DNA of 64,000 nucleotides, from assembly GCF_001888165.1 (NCBI RefSeq), contig NZ_CP015455.1:2040001-2104000 (forward strand), given 5' to 3'. Under the pieces are notes generated by a model. It worked only from the letters and a program-made list of their open reading frames with translations, was not told the DNA's origin and did no database searches. Source of the DNA: Syntrophotalea acetylenica. Lineage in GTDB: Bacteria; Desulfobacterota; Desulfuromonadia; Desulfuromonadales; Syntrophotaleaceae. The position numbers and the translations under genes were made by a program. Below, piece after piece: positions 21,231-46,605 of this stretch. Numbering within the stretch: position 1 is the first letter of the stretch; every line of letters starts with the position of its first letter.

Positions 21231-21406
21231 GTATCCATCCGGAAACTCCGGATGGATACAGCGTAGTTTTCATATGGGAAACGAGCAATTTTTCGTTGTG
21301 GCAAGAAAATCAAGGGGTTGCGCGGAGGCGTACATCGGTACGCCGCACAAGCAAGCCTGCGGATTGACGCCGCCACGGCGGAAAAGGACCGTTTCCGGAT
21401 GAAAAC
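21231..21406 (+). repeat. 176-bp dispersed repeat, copy A
   Basis: The element opens with GTATCCATCCGG..CCGGATGGATAC, a self-complementary end hairpin, and closes with GTTTCCGGATGAAAAC. It is about 95% identical by eye to copy B (29240-29415, inverted) and clearly related to copy C (31846-32021); all three are 176 bp. A 43-codon open frame inside survives in each copy but changes freely in sequence. Copy A separates the TetR-type operator at 21536 from the AdhE remnant and old yellow enzyme. Confidence 0.9.
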
Positions 21407-26199: not shown

Positions 26200-26228
26200 G
26201 TTTTCATCCGGAGTTTCCGGATGGATAC
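26200..26228 (+). repeat. 29-bp short form of the 176-bp repeat (copy D)
   Basis: It begins GTTTTCATCCGGAG and ends CCGGATGGATAC; it is identical to copy E (46577-46605). It consists of the two ends of the 176-bp element joined at the direct repeat CATCCGGA, 54 bases upstream of the selenoprotein start. Confidence 0.85.
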
Positions 26229-26281
26229 TAGGCTGAGATTAAACGGTCATTTTCTCTACTACGAGCGAAAGGAGACGGGCG

Positions 26282-26869
26282 ATGGCCGAGATCAGGTGGG
26301 AGAAAGATTTCAGCGCCGTGCAGAAGCGGGCAAAGGCAGAAAAAAAGCCGATTTTTCTCGATTTCTGGTTCGATGGGTGACTGGGCTGCATCGCCATGAA
26401 TACGGGTCCGTATTCCAGCCAGGAAGTACAGAAATCCATAGAACAGCGGTTCATCCCGTTGAAAAGCGAATGTTTCTGGGACAAGCGAACCGACCTCATG
26501 AATCGGTTCCTGGTCAAGTGGACACCCACTCTGCTGATTCTCGACGCCGAAGGTAAGGAACACCATCGGATGGTGGGGTACATCCCCGATGACGACTTTC
26601 TTGCCCACCTGGAGTTGGGCTTGGGAAAGATCGCCTTCAACGAGGACCGATATGCCGAGGCGGGGGACCATTTTCAGGCGGTAGTCAACCGGCACCCGAA
26701 AGCGGGAGCGGTCCCTGAAGCGGTTTTCTTGAACGGCGTGGCCGGCTACAGAAGGCTCCAAGACCCCAAGCCTTTGCGCTTGGCCTATGAATCCCTGTCG
26801 GAAAGGTATCCACAGAGCGAATGGGCGCGAAGATCAAAGCCCTATGCTCAAATTCCCCTGGATGAATAG
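26282..26869 (+). CDS. Thioredoxin-fold selenoprotein (in-frame TGA as Sec)
   Basis: Read through the TGA at 26378-26380, the frame gives one 195-residue protein; without readthrough it stops after 32 codons. Residues 1-32 start a thioredoxin fold (KKPIFLDFWFDG). The TGA then falls exactly at the first redox position of U-L-G-C, i.e. UxxC at residues 33-36. The same frame continues with 'FLVKWTPTLLILD', holding the thioredoxin cis-Pro, and a helical TPR-like tail (AEAGDHFQAVVNRHP). AAAGGAGA lies 8 bases before the ATG. Immediately 3' of the TGA is a SECIS-like hairpin. It probably acts as a cytosolic thiol/selenol oxidoreductase. The alternative, a pseudogene with one nonsense change, is less likely given motif position and hairpin. 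Confidence 0.85.
26378..26420 (+). promoter_or_regulatory. SECIS-like selenocysteine insertion element
   Basis: The hairpin AATACG-GGTC-CGTATT (26399-26414) presents the apical GGUC loop also found in the E. coli fdhF SECIS. The loop begins 24 nt after the UGA, within the bacterial range. Flanking GGCTG (26384-26388) and CAGCC (26416-26420) can pair below, leaving a bulge. Recognition by SelB is inferred. Confidence 0.75.
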
Positions 26870-26884
26870 AGTCCAATCGAGCAG

Positions 26885-27458
26885 GATGAGGTGAGTTGAT
26901 CAATACTCACCTCATCCCTCTCACAGAACCGTGCGTACGGGCCTCGTACACGGCTCCTGTCCATTCTTCTCTCAATATTCTTGAGGCAGATAACCCGTTT
27001 TCACTCTGCTCAAATCAAATAATCCCAGCTCTTCAAGCCAGCTGTTGGGTATCGCATAGTTGGCCAAGGAACTTGCGGCATTACGCCACGATTGCATCCT
27101 GATCGCCTTGAACTCGCTTTGATAACCTAAGTTGCCGGAGTCTACGATGGAGCCGTTGCGGCTTTCTCCACAACGCCAACTGCTTGGCTCGCAGGCGCCT
27201 GCGGACCCAACGGGCCAGCTCCTGGAACTGTTTGCAGCAGTGCGCTACCCGGAGGGAGTTGGCGAATCCCCGCAGAACCGGGTTCAGATCTTTGATCACC
27301 TGTTCCAGATTGACCGGGGAGTTGCGCCGGGTTATGCGCCTGACCTTGTCTTTGAACTGCTGAACCTTGTCACTGCGGATGCGGGTGTAGCAGCTCTCGA
27401 TGGTGACGCCAAGTGGTCGAGGGCCTTTGGTGTCTGACAGATGGTGATTCTTGTTCAA
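26885..27458 (-). pseudogene. Group II intron remnant: maturase C terminus plus domain V
   Basis: On the minus strand 27458-27081 encodes 125 residues of the C-terminal part of a group II intron reverse transcriptase/maturase ('PLGVTIESCYTRIRSDKVQQF', 'LEQVIKDLNPVLRGFANS'-type maturase domain). The catalytic RT domain (YADD) and the HNH end are missing. About 125 bases further on, 26956-26926 folds as intron domain V (GAGCCGTG...CGCACGGTTC), followed by TGTGAGAGG. A perfect 11-bp inverted repeat GATGAGGTGAG/CTCACCTCATC (26885-26915) marks the 3' end region. The 5' two thirds of the intron is absent, so it cannot be mobile. Confidence 0.85.
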
Positions 27459-29239: not shown

Positions 29240-29415
29240 GTTTTCATCCGGAAACAGCCCTTTTCCGCCGTGGCGGCGTCAATCCGCAGGCTTGCTTGTG
29301 CGGCGTACCGATGTGCGCCTCCGCGCAACCCCTTGATTTCCTTGCCACAACGAAAAATAGCTCGTTTCCCATATGAAAACCACGATGTATCCATCCGGAG
29401 TTTCCGGATGGATAC
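29240..29415 (-). repeat. 176-bp dispersed repeat, copy B (inverted)
   Basis: Reverse-complement of copy A with about 95% identity by eye over the full 176 bp, including both end sequences. The rest of 28.98-29.5 kb holds only AT-rich spacer and the second 25-bp repeat. Confidence 0.9.
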
Positions 29416-32079: not shown

Positions 32080-32160
32080 CCATAGTCAAAGCTAAACCCC
32101 TCGTGAGGGGGGACGGAAAGCGGCGGGTCTTCCCGAAGAAGACGGCCGAGCTGCCAAAGG
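32080..32160 (+). ncRNA. GEMM-I cyclic dinucleotide riboswitch (c-di-GMP type predicted)
   Basis: The order of conserved pieces matches GEMM aptamers: GCUAAACC, a GUGA-capped hairpin (CCCCUCGUGAGGGG), GACGGAAAGC, then GGGUCUUC...GAAGAC and GCCGAGCUGCC. This is nearly the layout of the Geobacter cGAMP riboswitch of known structure. At the position equivalent to Vc2 residue 20 (two bases before the U preceding AAACC) the base is G, which in this family favours c-di-GMP. The 3' strand is also the 5' arm of the downstream terminator. Confidence 0.85.
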
Positions 32161-41806: not shown

Positions 41807-41900
41807 GATTACAATCAAACCCTCGAAAAAGCCAGAACTTTTGCGAGAAAGTGACGGAAAGCCGCGGGTCTTCCGGGAGGAAGATGGCCGAGCTGCCGAA
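41807..41900 (+). ncRNA. GEMM-I riboswitch (cGAMP type predicted)
   Basis: Conserved pieces in order: UUACAAUCAAACC, a long variable hairpin (CUCGAAAAAG...CUUUUGCGAG), GUGACGGAAAGCC, GGGUCUUCC...GGAAGAUGGCC and GAGCUGCCGAAGG. The base equivalent to Vc2 position 20 reads A here, which in Geobacter GEMM-Ib aptamers marks cGAMP recognition; alignment around this position is shorter than in copy 1, so the specificity call is tentative. The aptamer itself is well supported. Confidence 0.83.
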
Positions 41901-41932
41901 GGTTTACTTCGGTGCAGCTCGGCCTTTTTCTT
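41885..41932 (+). terminator. Terminator overlapping the second riboswitch
   Basis: GGCCGAGCTGCCGAAG pairs with CTTCGGTGCAGCTCGGCC, then TTTTTCTTT. As in copy 1, the 5' arm is the aptamer's 3' strand, predicting ligand-dependent antitermination. Confidence 0.83.
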
Positions 41933-46576: not shown

Positions 46577-46605
46577 GTTTTCATCCGGAGTTTCCGGATG
46601 GATAC
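46577..46605 (+). repeat. 29-bp short form of the 176-bp repeat (copy E)
   Basis: Identical to copy D at 26200, in the same orientation; it is located between korA and the 17-bp tandem repeat. Confidence 0.85.

Follow-up and report, generated by a model that had tools for sequence, protein, structure and literature searches.

A Predicted UxxC Selenoprotein with Thioredoxin and TPR-Like Domains in Syntrophotalea acetylenica

The window—the whole 64-kb stretch of Syntrophotalea acetylenica DNA analyzed here—carries on its forward strand a gene for a predicted selenoprotein of 195 residues (positions 26282–26869), conserved in relatives over its whole frame. Comparative evidence makes it near-certain that the in-frame UGA at codon 33 is decoded as selenocysteine (Sec). 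A preliminary description made from sequence alone had proposed this decoding, and it is supported by the Sec machinery of the genome, homologues with Sec or Cys at this position, covariation in a downstream hairpin, and the absence of that hairpin from most Cys forms. A redox enzyme with Sec at UGA33 is the best explanation of the locus as a whole, with a probability that we place at about 95%.

Reading Frame and Active Site

Translation would start at an ATG preceded at 7 nt by AGGAG, a Shine–Dalgarno-like element read in the sequence (26270–26274, + strand). The frame closes with a TAG codon at 26867–26869, and UGA33 (26378–26380) is the only other stop codon within it. As first described, UGA33 occupies the first redox position of a U-L-G-C motif; Cys36 (26387–26389), the predicted resolving residue of the UxxC site, is invariant among 47 aligned members. 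The 162 residues that follow UGA33 include the expected thioredoxin cis-proline segment, WTPT (26519–26530), with the proline at residue 82 and with W80, T81, and P82 invariant in the same alignment.

Under translation table 11, the single ORF at the locus spans 26396–26869 (157 aa), which is the split product that an automatic caller had been expected to give. Gene callers would probably truncate the gene in this way, and its annotation would probably be that of the 157-residue product, which lacks the active site. Given this probable misannotation and the lack of an NCBIfam model for the family, dozens of related genes may be miscalled. One TGA-x-x-Cys frame of comparable size is found in the 64-kb window, compared with ~1.3 expected in Markov-1 random sequence. 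Neither the TGA-frame pattern nor a single hairpin goes beyond chance when taken alone; conservation among homologues decides the question.

Fold and Probable Function

Residues 1–110 (26282–26611) form a DsbD-γ-like thioredoxin-fold domain. Pfam assigns Thioredoxin_2 (PF13098, 5e-11; 43.2 bits against a cutoff of 27) as well as Thioredoxin_7, and an AlphaFold model (47 sequences; pLDDT 95, pTM 0.91) matches DsbD-γ structures with Z 14–15. A C-terminal helical TPR-like domain follows (residues 103–190, 26588–26851), all-helical in the model with helices at 103–120, 124–137, 144–159, and 163–175; its weak TPR_6 match (E 3e-4) lies below the Pfam cutoff, and TPR_6 matches occur in 26 of the 47 members. 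No signal peptide was seen by eye in the window protein, suggesting that it is probably cytosolic.

The protein is most likely a thiol:disulfide oxidoreductase that depends on Sec and would bind a partner through its TPR part. During its synthesis, the ribosome would pause at UGA33, SelB with Sec-tRNA(Sec) would bind the GGUC-loop hairpin just 3′ in the same mRNA, and Sec would be inserted as the nucleophile of the U-L-G-C active site within the DsbD-γ-type thioredoxin fold. The selenolate would attack a substrate disulfide and Cys36 would resolve the mixed selenenylsulfide, while the C-terminal TPR-like domain would most likely hold the client or redox partner. The frame, the Sec/Cys exchange, the Sec machinery, the RNA element, and the fold are computational results; the direction of the redox chemistry, the cytosolic location, the role of the TPR-like part, and Sec in the protein itself are what we infer.

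Other roles for a selenoprotein of this architecture deserve consideration, and we regard them as unlikely, though well short of negligible: It could work as a CnoX/YbbN-like holdase under redox control, or could serve in peroxide or metal handling, rather than act as a disulfide reductase. A thioredoxin domain combined with TPR-like helices would suit such a role, and YbbN-type structures rank third and tenth in the Foldseek search; the YbbN alignment over both domains is loose, however (rmsd 11–13 Å), and the YbbN active site is SxxC. An OsmC gene 0.8 kb downstream also points in this direction, but with no gene neighbor conserved among relatives its presence is probably incidental.

Homologues and Sec/Cys Exchange

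The family comprises 69 distinct members, drawn from 98 relatives searched, a GTDB genome scan, and 277 genomes of the class. Codon 33 is TGA in 49 of them and a Cys codon in the other 20 (TGC in 13, TGT in 7), with nothing else observed; the Cys homologues anticipated in the preliminary description are therefore present, and none of the 69 members lacks a redox residue (Sec or Cys) here. Position 33 is the only in-frame TGA in 48 of the TGA forms; L135, the remaining one, carries another in the late part of its frame. Frame identity is 57–81% within the clade of the window gene and 33–43% across the family.

These comparisons make it highly improbable that UGA33 is a true stop, with the 32-codon stub as a leader or decay product and a restart at ATG 26396 yielding 157 residues without the active site. 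Table 11 does predict the ORF from 26396, and the Met39 at which it starts does not vary across the alignment of 47 members. That residue is internal to the helix bearing the active site, however, so a protein restarted there would lack the first strand and the first helix of the thioredoxin fold. Codons 1–32 are conserved as protein and are continuous with that fold, and 20 relatives encode Cys at position 33 with no break in the frame.

All 20 Cys forms, including those of Geomonas silvestris and G. limicola, fall on one side of a branch with support 97 and are nested among TGA forms. Because selA is kept by every Cys-form genome, the simplest reading is that Cys replaced Sec once and that the Sec machinery was retained. 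The family would then constitute a clean natural experiment, in which the RNA hairpin disappeared after a single Sec-to-Cys replacement in a lineage still equipped with the Sec machinery.

Eight members, the window gene among them, form a clade with support 100 that sits on a long branch, is marked by an NTGPYS motif, and is ~33–43% identical to the larger sister group. This clade is found in several families, and its distribution is patchy: Only two of six genomes searched from the window organism's own genus carry the gene. Both subfamilies occur together in one genome (G189), and a UGA-form member (L100) was found in another (G186; 5,136,364 bp). Plasmid records gave matches only to thioredoxin-family proteins at 23–32% identity. 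We offer as a tentative and rather doubtful proposal that the clade (ULGC-x-AMNTGPYS) may represent a functionally distinct subfamily of stand-alone, probably cytosolic Sec-dependent thioredoxin–TPR proteins—perhaps CnoX-like, selenium-based redox chaperones—whose distribution across deltaproteobacterial families is patchy and whose SECIS loop is displaced by one nucleotide from that of most sister-group members.

Predicted SECIS Hairpin

The candidate SECIS upper stem–loop, GAATACG-GGUC-CGUAUUC (26398–26415, + strand), folds with an apical GGUC loop at 26405–26408, the presumed SelB contact. With the U of UGA numbered 1, the stem comprises nt 21–27/32–38 and the loop nt 28–31; the locus thus has the features of a bacterial SECIS, namely a stem–loop shortly 3′ of UGA with G in its apical loop. 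The GGUC-loop SECIS of the preliminary description has held up, with covariation in its favor and absence from most Cys-coding homologues. Its placement needs one adjustment: The distance of 24 nt after the TGA is correct for the start of the GGTC loop, whereas the stem begins at 17 nt.

In the single sequence, folding stability is ordinary relative to dinucleotide shuffles (z −0.6), and we rejected this nonsignificant measure as evidence. Compared with synonymous recodings, the hairpin lies in the best 3%. Nine relatives, picked for their shared register, show pairing in 100% of cells and both-sided changes at three of six pairs (G-C/A-U, A-U/G-C, and U-A/A-U), against at most 60% pairing when one strand is slid by 1–3 columns as a control. 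A second pair register, 23–34 to 26–31, was observed in the GGACGCGGUCGCGUACC group; pooling all 23 sequences mixes the two registers and weakens the pair count, with 75% of cells pairing. Synonymous-site identity is 0.90 in codons 34–44 versus 0.60 elsewhere (permutation 25/200000), and every other 11-codon block is lower.

A predicted hairpin with a G-first, GU-containing loop occurs in 48 of 49 TGA forms versus 2 of 20 Cys forms; the associated Fisher value of 2e-13 is indicative only, as the criterion (such a loop starting at nt 25–29) was set after inspecting the sequences and the relatives are not independent. The loop region encodes Thr-Gly-Pro in the window clade versus Ala-Val-Ala/Ser/Thr in the sister group, meaning that different amino acids underlie similar RNA motifs; for most of the sister group, GGUC is offset by one nucleotide from its place in the window clade.

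Within the window clade, members with only 60–62% protein identity have the 18-nt hairpin in common letter for letter, with one exception. Pelobacter sp. UBA6093 has a second copy of the gene (L053, 2973–3038), and in this paralogue a G-to-C substitution breaks pair 26–33, removing one SECIS stem pair. Either the change is tolerated, or the RNA adopts another folding register, or Sec insertion is being lost in this copy.

It is scarcely credible that UGA33 is read as Trp or Cys by suppression or marks a decaying pseudogene: Near-cognate UGA read-through exists in bacteria, but Trp occurs in none of the 69 distinct homologues, UGA is kept across the family down to 33–43% identity with hairpin pairing held by both-sided changes, and the frame of the window gene contains no further stop.

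Sec Machinery

Sec decoding at UGA33 would depend on selA, selB, selC, and selD, and the 3.2-Mb genome of the window proved to contain them all: tRNA-Sec (79 bits; anticodon TCA, read as UCA), adjoining selA (616 bits) and selB (368 bits) genes at C1:1975005–1978514, and selD (358 bits). The selD gene (L018; G000:C1:686329–687273, − strand) is itself a selenoprotein gene, with an in-frame TGA in GUAAKLGP.

Across the class, selA is present in 233 of 277 genomes, and 20 of 20 Cys-form genomes have it; we rejected its presence as a discriminator of UGA and Cys forms because it is near-universal. Two of 37 UGA-form genomes gave no selA match, one with selB above cutoff (G199) and the other 53% complete (G268).

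Genomic Context

Neighboring genes differ in every relative examined, and none is conserved, either within the window clade or across 14 sister-group loci. We therefore rejected gene neighborhood as a functional clue, and the changing neighbors suggest that the selenoprotein gene is transcribed on its own. In the window, a gene for a zinc-binding-dehydrogenase-type oxidoreductase lies upstream. Directly 3′ of the selenoprotein gene is a group II intron remnant (26890–27458, − strand), identified from a match to Rfam RF00029 together with a GIIM maturase domain, and beyond it lies the OsmC gene.

Several other elements were observed in the window. A dispersed palindromic repeat, TCATCCGGAGTTTCCGGATGGATAC, occurs four times, each copy with no more than one mismatch (26204–26228, 29391–29415, and 46581–46605, + strand; 21231–21255, − strand), none being expected by chance; one copy is found a short way 5′ of the selenoprotein gene. 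Two c-di-GMP-I class riboswitches (41822–41901 and 32081–32158, + strand), one of the GGC subtype (RF03167), and a Moco-II RNA motif (RF01713; 54564–54612, + strand; 45 bits) were also found.

Comparison with Known Systems

No NCBIfam model reaches its cutoff for the window protein, and the same models are the best matches across the 47 members. The top match, the TsoB rhodanese/DsbD-fusion selenoprotein (NF045694), covers the DsbD-γ-like part only, and membership was rejected at 46.7 bits against a cutoff of 805 and 195 residues against 572 model positions. We likewise rejected DsbD (NF001419; 41.3 versus 330 bits, with the 195 residues matching the last 108 model positions only), thioredoxin TrxA (TIGR01068; 26.3 bits versus an equivalog cutoff of 96.8), and the VPGUxxT model, whose score is far below cutoff.

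The closest well-characterized solved fold is DsbD-γ, which matches the model over about 110 residues (rmsd mostly 1.8–2.8 Å; Z 14–15; 24–27% identity) and has its redox motif in the same place. Unlike DsbD-γ, the window protein is stand-alone, with no membrane part and no signal peptide seen, would have Sec for the first Cys, and has an added C-terminal helical domain. CnoX/YbbN shares the order of a thioredoxin domain followed by TPR-like helices, and its Foldseek match extends over about 200 columns and both domains, if loosely (rmsd 10.7–13 Å); the window protein differs in its shorter helical part, in the domain arrangement seen in that alignment, and in its UxxC active site.

The nearest published counterpart is a family of predicted selenoproteins. 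In 2006, three selenoproteins designated "thiol:disulfide interchange protein" were reported in Syntrophus aciditrophicus, Geobacter metallireducens, and G. uraniumreducens (PMC1794560). The family is also described as PF13098 with UxxC, with WP_011366075.1 as an example (PMC13188914), as "Trx-like 2 (Thiol disulfide interchange protein)" with cd02953 and UxxC (PMC2398784), and as a predicted "Thiol:disulfide interchange protein" family with PF13098 and UxxC (PMC9312934). The novelty implied in the preliminary description was thus overstated, since predictions of PF13098 UxxC selenoproteins in Geobacter and Syntrophus date back to 2006 (PMC1794560, PMC13188914); our literature search found no paper naming this gene in Pelobacter.

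The window protein combines a PF13098 match above the Pfam cutoff (43.2 bits versus 27) with ULGC as its UxxC motif, and it shares with the published family Sec as the first residue of that motif, a downstream bacterial SECIS, and deltaproteobacterial hosts. Matched by family description, the gene is likely orthologous to the published thiol:disulfide interchange protein (WP_011366075.1). It differs in its placement in the separate eight-member NTGPYS clade, ~33–43% identical to the larger group, and it fits as a further selenoprotein of the kind already predicted in 2006.
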